From NCBI GenBank assembly GCA_016928525.1, contig JAFGKO010000072.1:1-7160 (forward strand): 7,160 nt of DNA, in the 5' to 3' direction. The DNA is from Anaerolineales bacterium. GTDB lineage: Bacteria > Chloroflexota > Anaerolineae > Anaerolineales > Villigracilaceae. A program made the position numbers and the translations under genes. The notes under the pieces were generated by a model that ran no database searches, was not told the DNA's origin, and saw only the letters and a list, made by a program, of their open reading frames with translations. Numbering within the stretch: position 1 is the stretch's first letter; each line of letters opens with the position of its first letter. This document shows, one piece after another, positions 1 through 3,652 of this stretch.

Positions 1-1544
1 CGACTGGAAATTCCGATCTTGTCGTAAATATGTTCCAGGTGGTGCGCAACAGTCCGTTCACTGATGACCAGGGCTTGAGCAATCTGGCGGTTGGTGTCGC
101 CTTTGGCGACGTGTTGCAAGACTTCTACTTCGCGATTAGTGAGACCCGCGGGCCGATCACGCCGCGGACGCGGTTGGGGTGCTGTACCGCCCAACTCCTC
201 TGCCAGCGCTGCGTAACAGTCCGGCGAGAATAACGGTCCGATGTCTGGCTGCATCGATTTCAGAACATCTTGAGGATCAGGAGTGGTATGGTGCCGACTT
301 GCCTGCAAACGCTCCTGAAAATCGTCTGCTAGCGCCAGAATGCAAGCACTTACGGGCAGTTCGTCGCCTGAAAGCCCACGGTAGTAGCCCGTTCCGTTCA
401 GCCGTTCATGGTGCATCCCGGCAATGGCGGCAATCGATGCGAGGACTGGCATACGGGAAAGGACGCGCTCTGTGTAATACGGGTGCAGGCGCAGCTTCTC
501 TTTGTCGACTTCGCTTAACTGGTCCTGATTGAGCAAAATGTGGCTGGGTAGCGCGAGATGTCCCAGATCGTGAACCAGTGCAGCCCGGTGGATCGTGGTG
601 ATCTCGGATTCAGGCAAGCCCAACCGGCGCGCGATGCACTCCGCGAAGTAGGCGGTCTCTCGTGAATGGGTAACGGTAGCAGGCGATTTCAGGTCAACAA
701 AATCCGCGGCGGCCAGCGCCACATCGTCCAATCTCGTCTCTTCGATGGTCCGATAAGGCGAATCAGGCTCCAGTTCAAGCACAACTTCCCATAAGTCTTG
801 CTTTGCCAGTATTTCCCACAAATTGGATTCCCTGGCAACTGAGAGAAAAACGTCAACAACATGGGGATCAAAAAGTTTGCCTTTTCGCTCAAGGGCGATG
901 GTCTCCGCCGCATCACGCCCATGCACCGTATTGCAGGCATCGGCCTTCAACGCCATGTGAAGCAAGCGGGCGCTTAGGGGAATCTCATCCCCTCGTAAGC
1001 CAAACGGCCCCTTGCCATCCCAGCGCTCCAGATAGTACCGAACGGCATTCTGTACTCCTGGGGGCATGTCGAGCCGCTGAGCCACACGAACGGCTACTTC
1101 ACAAACACCTCGAACATCACCTTCATCAGGGTTATGGAGCAGCGCCCGCACGAGATTGAGAATCCTCGTGGGCAGTGGCGCATCGGGCGATACATTGGCT
1201 CTCATCCAGCCGAGCATCTCCCGCAGACTCGAATCGTCGCGGAGCGTAATATCGCCGATGGCCGCCAATTCATCACCCTGGATGATGGGAGCCATTGCCA
1301 AGGATAGCGCTGCACAGCCTGAATGCATGAGGAGAAAGCTGTAATAGAGTTCAACCTGCTCCGAATCCGACAGACGCAGCTCACGCGCCATCGCCATGCC
1401 GAGATAACAGGCGCGAAGAGCGTGGCCCATGGATTTCCCCGTTCCCAGGTCAGTGGCAAAAGAGAAGGCTGCCAGAACCTCCGCCATTCGCATCGGGTTG
1501 TGAGGCGTCTCAGAAGGAGCGCGATTGATCGTGGGCATGTCCAT
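1..1544 (-). CDS. Tandem HD-GYP-type domain protein with C-terminal LuxR-type DNA-binding domain (3' end outside the window)
   Basis: The frame is open from ATG at 1544 to the left edge, giving 514 complete codons; an in-frame TAA lies about ten codons upstream, so this is the first possible ATG (a second is at 1538). No Shine-Dalgarno is visible. Residues about 25-200 look like a worn HD-GYP domain: the HD pair is H74-S75, and ERWDGKGPFGLRGDEIPL (173-190) replaces the usual HHE..DGxGYPxGL. Residues about 285-420 form a second HD-GYP-like domain that keeps the likely metal ligands: H293, H325-D326 (VHDLGHLALP), H354 (LHP), H378-H379 and D407; its GYP motif reads GYY (387-389). Residues about 467-515 are a LuxR/GerE HTH (LTNREVEVLQ, then VISERTVAHHLEHIYDKIG), probably lacking only its last 10-20 residues. 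The family knowledge supports cyclic-di-nucleotide or other phosphohydrolase activity; coupling to transcription is inferred. It is divergent from the heliorhodopsin gene. Confidence 0.88.
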   Translation of the reverse strand, partial: MDMPTINRAPSETPHNPMRMAEVLAAFSFATDLGTGKSMGHALRACYLGMAMARELRLSDSEQVELYYSFLLMHSGCAALSLAMAPIIQGDELAAIGDITLRDDSSLREMLGWMRANVSPDAPLPTRILNLVRALLHNPDEGDVRGVCEVAVRVAQRLDMPPGVQNAVRYYLERWDGKGPFGLRGDEIPLSARLLHMALKADACNTVHGRDAAETIALERKGKLFDPHVVDVFLSVARESNLWEILAKQDLWEVVLELEPDSPYRTIEETRLDDVALAAADFVDLKSPATVTHSRETAYFAECIARRLGLPESEITTIHRAALVHDLGHLALPSHILLNQDQLSEVDKEKLRLHPYYTERVLSRMPVLASIAAIAGMHHERLNGTGYYRGLSGDELPVSACILALADDFQERLQASRHHTTPDPQDVLKSMQPDIGPLFSPDCYAALAEELGGTAPQPRPRRDRPAGLTNREVEVLQHVAKGDTNRQIAQALVISERTVAHHLEHIYDKIGISS

Positions 1545-1569
1545 CAGTGCAACGTTATTCTGATTGTTA

Positions 1570-1610
1570 TTTTATTTATAATAACATGTCTGGATTCTGT
1601 TGACACGTCA
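1570..1610 (-). promoter_or_regulatory. Possible core promoter and inverted repeat upstream of the HD/LuxR gene
   Basis: This is the most AT-rich stretch of the 239-bp divergent spacer. On the minus strand TATTAT (1583-1578) would be a -10 box placing a start site near 1571, about 27 nt before the ATG. The matching -35 (TGTCAA, 1605-1600, spacing 16) is poor. That position overlaps the short inverted repeat TGAC-AC-GTCA at 1601-1610, which could be an operator. The same AT core contains TATAAT on the plus strand (1577-1582), without a convincing -35. The call rests on sequence resemblance only. Confidence 0.3.
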
Positions 1611-1734
1611 GCACATCCAAAGACAAGTTTGTTCAAAAAAACCTGCCGGCACAAAGTCGCCAGAAGCTGTCGCGTAGGCCATCGTCGTACACTCGCACCC
1701 TACTACCACACTGGCGAAAATACCGATCTCAATC

Positions 1735-1774
1735 TATAACGACCTTACACGCTGATTTTGCACCTTGAAGGGGG
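1735..1774 (+). promoter_or_regulatory. Ribosome binding site and possible -10 of the heliorhodopsin gene
   Basis: GAAGGGGG at 1767-1774 is a plausible purine-rich Shine-Dalgarno, nine bases before the ATG at 1784, and supports that start. TATAAC at 1735-1740 could be a -10 box giving a leader of about 35-40 nt, but no good -35 is found 16-18 bases upstream, so the promoter part is weak. Confidence 0.45.
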
Positions 1775-1783
1775 CCTATCACG

Positions 1784-2563
1784 ATGGCTACAACCGGTGA
1801 AGGACAATTCCGCAATTTGCGCCGCTTCAATCTTTTCATGGGGATGTTTCATTTCGTCCAGGGACTGCTGATGCTAGCCCTGAGTGATCTGGACTTCAAA
1901 CTTCCTGTCACGACCTCGTTCCTGAAGTATGACGAGGTGACCGAAAAGCTTGTCACCAATCTGGAGACCGCTTTCAATGTTCCGCTGGCCCTGCTTGTCG
2001 CGGCCTTTCTGTTTATGTCCGCCCTGGCGCATTTTCTGATCTCAACGCCGGGCATCTACGGCTGGTATGTTCGCAATCTGAAAAAGGGCGTCAACTACGC
2101 GCGGTGGATCGAATACAGCGTTAGCTCCTCCGTCATGATCGTGGCGATCGCGATGCTGTTCGGTATGTACGATATCGCAACGCTGCTGCTGATCTTTGCG
2201 CTGAACGCCATGATGATCCTGTTTGGCTGGATGATGGAACTGCACAATCAGACCACTAAAAAGACAGATTGGACCGCCTTCATTTTCGGCTCTATCGCGG
2301 GGATCGTGCCCTGGATCGCGATTGGCATCTACTTCGTTGGTTCGGTCACCAGCGGCGAACAGGTTCCCAATTTTGTCTACGCGATCTATGTCTCGCTGTT
2401 CCTATTCTTCAACGTGTTCGCAATCAACATGATTCTGCAATACAAGAAGATCGGGCGTTGGCAGGACTATCTCTACGGCGAAAAGGCTTACATCGTGCTG
2501 TCGCTGGTGGCAAAGTCGCTGTTGGCCTGGCAGGTGTTCTTCGGCACGCTGCAACCCAATTAG
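1784..2563 (+). CDS. Heliorhodopsin (retinal-binding seven-helix membrane photoreceptor)
   Basis: This is a complete 259-aa protein, close to the usual heliorhodopsin size of about 250-260 aa. Seven hydrophobic segments lie at roughly 14-34, 66-88, 107-127, 129-151, 163-187, 196-219 and 234-256. TM7 carries YIVLSLVAKSLLAWQVF with K244 as the retinal Schiff-base lysine. TM3 carries ARWIEYSVSSS with E110 as counterion. H23, H83 and S240 match the heliorhodopsin residues H23, H80 and S237 of the reference protein 48C12; E110 and K244 match its E107 and K241, with a constant +3 offset after TM1. The long segment between TM1 and TM2 (about 35-63) is also typical. Family knowledge: heliorhodopsins sit inverted in the membrane (N-terminus inside), have slow photocycles, and are generally not ion pumps; regulatory interactions with soluble enzymes have been reported. 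The start is supported by GAAGGGGG nine bases upstream. The gene stands alone on its strand, divergent from an HD/LuxR regulator. No retinal-synthesis gene is in the window. Confidence 0.96.
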   Translation: MATTGEGQFRNLRRFNLFMGMFHFVQGLLMLALSDLDFKLPVTTSFLKYDEVTEKLVTNLETAFNVPLALLVAAFLFMSALAHFLISTPGIYGWYVRNLKKGVNYARWIEYSVSSSVMIVAIAMLFGMYDIATLLLIFALNAMMILFGWMMELHNQTTKKTDWTAFIFGSIAGIVPWIAIGIYFVGSVTSGEQVPNFVYAIYVSLFLFFNVFAINMILQYKKIGRWQDYLYGEKAYIVLSLVAKSLLAWQVFFGTLQPN

Positions 2564-2766: not shown

Positions 2767-3042
2767 CTACGCTTCAGCAGTGGTCGGATCGATGATCTCT
2801 TGAATTTCCGATATCCGGTCCGCCGGGAATCCACCCCGGCGCGCGTGTTCAAGGATCATTTGCTTATCCGGTGAAATATAGGTGCAGTACAGGCGGTCGG
2901 CGGTCACAAAGCTTTGGAGCCATTGCACACTCGGCCCCAGGTCGTGCAAAACGCTGCATGACTTGTCCGCGATGGCTTGCAGATCGGCGGAGGAAAGTTT
3001 GCCAGCATCAGGGATAATACGTTCGATGATGTACTTAGGCAT
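2767..3042 (-). CDS. DUF4242 family small protein (possible nickel-binding SCO4226-like)
   Basis: This is a 91-aa soluble protein, MPKYIIERIIPDAGKLSSAD at the N-terminus and a C-terminal half with the family-typical EHARRGGFPADRISE and the ending IDPTTAE. These are recognisable hallmarks of the DUF4242 family, small ferredoxin-like-fold proteins. One Streptomyces member, SCO4226, was described as nickel binding; whether this one binds metal is unknown. Candidate ligands are C29, H33, C53 and H65. The start is well supported: AAAGGAG (3058-3052) lies nine bases before the ATG. The gene begins 34 bp after the stop of the secreted-protein gene, so the two are probably one transcript ending at the terminator at 2702-2745. 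The role is unknown. Confidence 0.85.
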   Translation of the reverse strand: MPKYIIERIIPDAGKLSSADLQAIADKSCSVLHDLGPSVQWLQSFVTADRLYCTYISPDKQMILEHARRGGFPADRISEIQEIIDPTTAEA

Positions 3043-3076: not shown

Positions 3077-3652
3077 TCAGGATACCGACATATCAACAAC
3101 CGGCGCGTCCGCTGGGCAGACGATGATCGGATTGTAGTCTGCAAAGAGGCCTTCGGGATTATGCGACCACAACCAGATATGTAAGGCCCAGACCGGAGGC
3201 GTATCGGGAATGGTGGTCTTGAGTACAAAGTCCTGACCGAACAGGCTGGGCGGTTCCCGGCCTTCCTCGTTGGGGTCCCACACATCAGCGAAAACAAGGT
3301 ACTCGTATGCCACCAAAACCTGCCTGCCATCACCCAGCGGTTCGTAAACCAGTGCTTCGGGCTGCATTGCGTCGAGGATATCGTCACCTACCAAGTCGCC
3401 ATGCACGTAGTGCTGCCCCATTCCCCGGTCTTCGCCGTGCGTGAAGCAGTCCAGGAATTTGCCATAACCGGCATCCAGCGCCGTATCGAGATCGTGATAC
3501 TGAGTCGTGGCGACCCGTACCTCATGGATCAGATCGACGGTCTCCTGAGGCAGCTCGCTGTCGCCGCCCTGCGCATGAGCAGACAGCAACATAGGCGCCA
3601 CCAAGAACAAGAACAGCAAACCCACACTTAACCGTACAACTCGCTCTTTCAT
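3077..3652 (-). CDS. Secreted protein of unknown function with signal peptide
   Basis: This 191-aa protein has a clear Sec signal peptide: basic start (MKERVVR), hydrophobic core at about 8-23, and a likely signal peptidase I site after SAHA (AHA|Q, around residue 27). The mature part is about 164 aa and acidic. Visible conserved-looking blocks are RVATTQYHDLDTALDAGYGKF (46-66), MGQHYVHGDL (78-87), QPEALVYEP (97-105) and WALHIWLWSHNPEGLFADYN (155-174). It has two cysteines, C69 and C179, which could form a disulfide outside the cell, and histidines H81, H85, H158 and H164 that could bind metal. I recognise the pattern from many hypothetical secreted proteins of Chloroflexota and Actinobacteria but cannot name a function. 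The start has a strong Shine-Dalgarno, AAGGAGG (3665-3659), six bases upstream. It is first in a likely operon with the DUF4242 gene. Confidence 0.83.
   Translation of the reverse strand: MKERVVRLSVGLLFLFLVAPMLLSAHAQGGDSELPQETVDLIHEVRVATTQYHDLDTALDAGYGKFLDCFTHGEDRGMGQHYVHGDLVGDDILDAMQPEALVYEPLGDGRQVLVAYEYLVFADVWDPNEEGREPPSLFGQDFVLKTTIPDTPPVWALHIWLWSHNPEGLFADYNPIIVCPADAPVVDMSVS

Follow-up and report, generated by a model that had tools for sequence, protein, structure and literature searches.

A typical heliorhodopsin of an Anaerolineales bacterium among unconserved neighbours, and the folate-operon setting of some of its relatives

The 7,160-nucleotide stretch of Anaerolineales DNA that we analysed, hereafter the window, encodes a protein that is, by sequence and predicted structure, a typical and complete heliorhodopsin (HeR) and one more member of a known family of light-sensing proteins of the membrane. 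The account that we consider likely is that of a bona fide heliorhodopsin whose gene, helR, forms a single-gene unit with incidental neighbours and whose partner acts in trans. The one lead worth pursuing is the placement of helR within a folate operon in a sister lineage. The features discussed below are collected in Table 1.

Table 1. Positions of features in the window and at loci of relatives (L numbers)
Feature	Position	Strand	Remarks
HD/LuxR protein	3-1544	-	two HD_5 domains and GerE HTH; runs off the left edge of the window; divergent from helR
Intergenic region between HD/LuxR gene and helR	1545-1783	.	divergent; 239 bases
Promoter-like site	1606-1578	-	promoter scan
Probable ribosome-binding site GAAGGGGG	1767-1774	+	9 bases ahead of the helR ATG; predicted from sequence
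helR, heliorhodopsin gene	1784-2563	+	open from ATG to TAG; 259 aa
helR product, key residues			S240-x-x-x-K244 in TM7; E110 and R107 in TM3; H23 in TM1; H83 in TM2
DUF4242 protein (PF14026, now SCO4226-like)	2767-3042	-	Pfam; convergent to helR
191-aa secreted-like protein	3077-3652	-	signal-peptide-like start by eye; no Pfam or NCBIfam match
helR in folate operon	L004 8083-11903; L005 8301-12893; L006 8296-12857; L127 4503-12780; L128 6748-10179
Other insertions at SDR-folB junction	L206 2016-2897; L207 2032-6097; L208 2167-6488		G512; G509; G508

According to profile searches, the helR product belongs to the heliorhodopsin family. It matched the Pfam family Heliorhodopsin (PF18761) with an E-value of 4e-106 and 354.2 bits, where the cut-off is 26.7, over positions 1-242 of the 242-position model. 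It also matched the NCBIfam equivalog for HeR (NF038020) with an E-value of 6e-109 and 363.2 bits, against a cut-off of 100, over positions 1-244 of 244. Each was the sole match in its collection (for Pfam, at E ≤ 0.001), and no type-1 rhodopsin family of Pfam was matched. Among PDB sequences, heliorhodopsins took the top places, with six distinct sequences between E 2.5e-79 and E 1.6e-49, and a xenorhodopsin came next at E 0.015. An earlier note on this DNA had called the protein a complete heliorhodopsin and not a type-1 pump. With an intact reading frame, two profile scores far above their cut-offs and a predicted fold with a TM score of 0.93 to the solved heliorhodopsin TaHeR, that assignment stands, and within the limits of sequence evidence the family is established.

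The structure was predicted with AlphaFold2 from an alignment of 38 sequences, comprising the window HeR and 37 relatives chosen from the best 120 of 7,652 matches. The model had a mean pLDDT of 87.3 and seven helices. K244 lies in the predicted TM7 helix (229-256) and E110 in the predicted TM3 helix (105-125), where E110 aligns with the TM3 glutamate of solved HeRs; both placements agree with the earlier note. H23, H83, R107, E110, M118, S240 and K244 were invariant in all 38 sequences, including the five residues that had been singled out at these positions before (K244, E110, H23, H83 and S240). The long TM1-TM2 loop that had also been remarked on spans residues 34-67 and is modelled with a two-strand beta hairpin (39-50 and 55-67; extracellular loop 1). 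In the model, the loops that would be inner carry nine K+R and three D+E residues, and those that would be outer three and eight, respectively, a charge pattern in agreement with the predicted N-terminus-in orientation. In a Foldseek search with the model, ten heliorhodopsin chains ranked at the top with TMq values of 0.86-0.93, and the matched structures included those of both TaHeR (6is6, 7u55) and 48C12 (6su3, 6uh3). By contrast, the top-ranked type-1 rhodopsin structure reached a TMq of 0.56 at 13% identity, and no type-1 structure exceeded 0.62 among the 50 matches listed. The SxxxK motif has been used for HeRs in the accessible part of PMC8612252, and a TM3 glutamate serves as the HeR counter-ion in that of PMC7807009.

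The closest homologues of the window HeR are metagenomic, at up to 91% identity, and the first named ones among the best 120 of 7,652 matches are from Anaerolineae or Chloroflexota. The best homologue from a genome, at 89% identity, is from an Anaerolineae MAG (genome G001, locus L001). By these homologues, the window HeR apparently comes from Chloroflexota, probably from an Aggregatilineales-like member of Anaerolineae. Of the 154 genomes in the order to which G001 belongs, 12 carry a HeR, eight of them at 74-89% identity to the window HeR (G001-G006, G402 and G404; the close-HeR genomes). We calculated a HeR tree of 170 rows, made up of 48 database proteins and 122 of 123 loci, L068 having been removed by a filter on length and stop codons. 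In this tree the window HeR fell in a 27-row clade (support 98) together with G001 and G002. One genome held two HeR matches (G386:C31 and G386:C288), the second with an internal TAG. Neighbouring genes of the relatives were called by tblastn mapping together with a gene caller based on amino-acid composition.

As for other members of the family, retinal would be bound at K244 with E110 as counter-ion, and the protein would be oriented with its N-terminus inside. Illumination would then change the cytoplasmic face and so modulate a cytosolic partner, with no ion pumping. One reading dispenses with the chromophore: the host would make no retinal, and HeR would work, if at all, as an apo-protein or with scavenged retinal. 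The distribution of retinal-forming oxygenases is in its favour, as BCD/Blh occurred in one of the 154 genomes of the order and in none of its 12 HeR carriers, RPE65 occurred in two of 23 genomes examined, and neither enzyme was recognised in the eight close-HeR genomes. We nevertheless hold this reading to be extremely improbable. The lysine, the counter-ion and the SxxxK motif are invariant in the 38 sequences, and a phytoene/squalene-synthase domain is present in six of the eight close-HeR genomes. Moreover, the two RPE65 genomes (G435 and G450) belong to the same order and themselves carry HeRs, though more distant ones, and the MAGs are incomplete.

In the window, helR is flanked on either side by genes of the opposite strand. 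The HD/LuxR protein has HDLG at 325 and HHERLNG at 378 and lacks GYP, which makes its HD-GYP-like motif a degenerate one. Further right lie genes for a LuxR-ATPase-TPR protein and then a CBS protein. The window takes in about 1.8 kb ahead of helR and 4.6 kb beyond it, so a partner may lie just past its edges. Its six annotated open reading frames included no photolyase, glutamine synthetase, ABC transporter or histidine kinase family in Pfam or NCBIfam. The earlier note was thus correct that the reported HeR partners are not adjacent, and that the flanks are an HD/LuxR regulator on one side and the secreted protein with DUF4242 on the other.

To what extent these neighbours belong to helR was assessed at 123 HeR loci including the window, with one genome place represented twice (L125 and L130) and the closest metagenomic HeRs (P0001-P0022) left out. 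The HD/LuxR, DUF4242, secreted and LuxR-ATPase genes had no full-length homologue at the 122 other loci, and the DUF4242 and secreted proteins had no match there of any kind. The HD/LuxR protein was matched in part at four of the 122 (L013, L164, L130 and L052; 52-148 residues per piece) and the LuxR-ATPase protein in part at three (L019, L164 and L130), the match at L019 covering 417 of 816 residues at 33% identity. The CBS gene had no match among the 80 loci tested. In G001-G006, matches to the HD/LuxR protein were restricted to its C-terminal HTH region; LuxR-type HTHs are common, with 2-15 matches per genome in these six relatives. Across the class, a homologue of the HD/LuxR protein (35-40% identity at E ≤ 1e-60, with three candidates scored in each genome) occurred in nine of 396 genomes and HeR in 48. 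The two sets did not overlap, which is weak evidence because only about one shared genome is expected by chance. The window context is therefore descriptive and not evidential. The earlier description of the neighbourhood as regulator-rich is fair, while the weight placed on that context finds no support at the other loci.

The HD/LuxR and DUF4242 neighbours are most likely incidental to helR, because the location of helR differs even where two HeRs share 89% identity: at L001, its neighbours encode a histidine kinase and, in addition, a DUF11 protein. A context that can change completely between such similar proteins means that a single neighbourhood tells little about function. The kinase gene of L001 (7675-9690), of CHASE4-PAS-HisKA-HATPase architecture, is divergent from helR and unrelated to the window's regulator.

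Alternatively, the HD/LuxR gene and helR could form one unit, in which HeR signals to the regulator or the regulator controls helR from the 239-base region between them. The two genes are head-to-head with a palindrome in the shared region, the kinase gene at L001 is likewise a divergent signalling gene, and the accessible part of PMC8612252 reports that signalling genes, namely two-component domains within 10 kb, are over-represented near HeRs. However, the window's regulator is not orthologous to the L001 kinase, its matches at other HeR loci are few and partial, those in the six relatives are confined to the HTH, and its homologues were absent from the 48 HeR genomes of the class, where about one was expected. 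The palindrome and the promoter-like site also sit at the regulator's end of the region. We judge a joint unit to be very unlikely, and prefer helR as a single-gene unit that would have its own upstream region.

That upstream region holds few recognisable elements. The probable ribosome-binding site of helR has a similar counterpart, AAAGGGGGCC, ahead of helR at L001. The promoter scan of 1545-1783 gave no site on the + strand, and an Rfam search of the window returned nothing at gathering thresholds. A conserved upstream motif shared with five relatives was considered and dropped, since no match between the upstream regions was longer than 8-18 bases or better than E 2.6, which is chance size. 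The palindrome, an inverted repeat at 1565-1586 (TGTTATTTTA / TATAATAACA), lies just upstream of the HD/LuxR gene and overlaps its promoter-like site; it is a possible operator candidate. Behind the DUF4242 gene, a terminator-like hairpin at 2702-2744 (GGGGCCUGG...CCAGGCCCC, - strand) is followed by nine U. It was rejected as a terminator, with a folding-energy z of -1.1, 27 of 200 shuffles folding as well, and no match in a consensus scan.

If the partner of HeR acts in trans, it would not be readable from the window; the synteny of sister HeRs suggests a pterin/folate enzyme as the first candidate. In five of the eight close-HeR genomes (G004, G005, G006, G402 and G404), helR lies in the order folE-SDR-helR-folB-folK on a single strand. 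G004 has an additional cupin-like gene between folE and SDR, and G005, G006 and G402 have an epimerase-like gene between helR and folB. FolE, the FolB domain and FolK scored above the NCBIfam cut-offs for the operon proteins scanned. For the SDRs, which are pteridine-reductase-like, the best-scoring models were pteridine reductase or a sister SDR model, in either case below the cut-offs, so that a pteridine is a putative substrate. In G402, an intact SDR gene lies about 3.3-3.5 kb upstream of helR. Just upstream of helR in the same genome (L127 9357-9515) is a 53-residue C-terminal SDR remnant of 70% identity, taken as a trace of an earlier SDR-helR adjacency.

The remaining close relatives differ. 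In G001 (L180) and G003 (L132), folE-SDR-folB-folK is complete without helR, which is on a separate contig. In G002 (L002 1091-2682), helR follows thyX on the same strand by 41-56 bases, depending on the choice of start codon; the thyX product is of the flavin-dependent thymidylate synthase family. In G182 (L148 3217-5023), the sole HeR carrier among 20 genomes of another order, the gene of a more distant HeR (57% identity) is followed by folB-folK after 27 bases. The FolB-FolK of G182 is sister to that of G005 and G006 (support 100/99), while its HeR is in a different clade. Its FolK is 78% identical to that of G006 and at most 57% to the FolKs listed from its own order. As FolK is nearer to G006 and the HeR is unique in the order, the contig could stem from transfer or from misbinning. 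The options for L148 are transfer, an in-place swap of HeR and a misbinned contig.

In the HeR tree, the five folate-operon HeRs fell into a single clade (support 94), which also takes in 11 database rows. Supported branches force two changes of the folate link among the grouped rows, and the examined loci between the two folate-linked clades have no such link. On this tree, the link of HeR to folB would have arisen at least two times. Two origins are weak statistics, because by a hand estimate about 60 independent HeR contexts predict one or two coincidental repeats. Among same-strand neighbours within 150 bases, we used 85 of 88 automatic picks (L042:3411-7022, L151:5329-8010 and L174:5807-5989 were left out) and included three further SDRs chosen manually (L005, L006 and L127). 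SDR accounted for 5 of 88, a count inflated by the three added by hand, and FolB for 3 of 88, which is not inflated. In the examined flanks of the remaining HeR loci, FolE, FolB and ThyX had no match; FolK was matched once more, about 8 kb off at L015, and the other SDR matches were of 28-33% identity.

These observations bear on the reading that the HeRs of this order modulate pterin/folate synthesis in response to light. Such a modulator would bind the SDR or FolB/FolK at the membrane, the window copy doing so in trans. The shared operon of the five genomes, the position directly behind thyX in G002, the folB-folK link of a different HeR lineage in G182 and the two or more origins of that link all argue for it. 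On the other side, the G001 HeR, 89% identical to that of the window, and the G003 HeR lie apart from an intact folate operon, the five carriers are close kin, the G182 contig is of doubtful origin, the examined flanks of other HeR loci gave no match to FolE, FolB or ThyX, and the window helR is not at the folate junction. The junction between SDR and folB moreover accepts other genes. Among the matches listed, 17 genomes of the order have SDR and folK within 7 kb; helR lies between them in five, no more than 537 bases separate them in nine, and other genes intervene in three, these being a 293-aa gene in G512 and 1010-aa plus 304-309-aa genes in G508 and G509. This marks the junction as permissive for insertions, and a helR that merely hitchhikes in a housekeeping operon therefore fits the data as well. 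On balance, we regard the modulator as unlikely. The fuller proposal, that in Aggregatilineales HeR switches pterin/folate biosynthesis by light, having been recruited two or more times to folB-folK and once to thyX and acting in trans in the window lineage, we regard as decidedly unlikely. A single-gene helR with incidental neighbours remains the preferred account. The folate-operon helR of the sister lineage offers a way to test what HeR does, since the candidate partners there are soluble and form a defined set.

Folate supplies the MTHF antenna of photolyase. We rejected this supply as a general reason for the folate link, as no DNA_photolyase match occurred in the five folate-operon genomes, which leaves no antenna-cofactor explanation there, and matches occurred in G001 and G002, where helR is elsewhere; G182 also has one. 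In a SAR202 isolate, two HeR copies lie one gene downstream of photolyase, according to the accessible part of PMC10444878.

Of solved heliorhodopsins, TaHeR from Thermoplasmatales archaeon SG8-52-1 is the closest, with a full-length sequence match at E 2.5e-79 and, for 6is6 against the model, a TMq of 0.93, an rmsd of 1.4 and 55% identity. The two share the Schiff-base lysine, the counter-ion, the SxxxK motif and the loop hairpin, and differ in source organism and gene context. Their alignment differs in length by one residue at the end of TM1 and by about four in the TM5-TM6 loop, the window HeR being longer. The match to 48C12 (E 4e-67, 48-49% identity) shows slightly different loop lengths; H23 aligns with H23 of 48C12, and E110, S240 and K244 align with residues three earlier, which we take to be E107, S237 and K241. 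The conserved histidines of 48C12 towards the N-terminal side, H23 and H80, have their counterparts in H23 and H83. H80, Arg104 and Met115 are named for 48C12 in the accessible part of PMC7807009.

With respect to gene context, the window resembles the two-component-linked HeRs in the accessible part of PMC8612252 in having regulators within a few kb. Unlike those, it has regulators of the LuxR type, joined to HD or ATPase-TPR parts, and no histidine kinase. The accessible text of PMC11109279 describes ten HeR operon classes, including glutamine synthetase, photolyase, ABC transporter and SDR, none of which is a same-strand neighbour of the window helR. That text does not name pterin or folate genes, and its SDR-group operons hold no other grouped gene. 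In the open-licence literature, taken without supplements, no description of folate or pterin genes next to HeR came up; if the light-switch proposal were true, pterin/folate enzymes would be a new class of HeR partner alongside glutamine synthetase, photolyase and ABC transporters. The SDR class of PMC11109279, as far as its accessible text goes, resembles G404, G004, G005 and G006, in which the SDR gene is directly upstream of helR.
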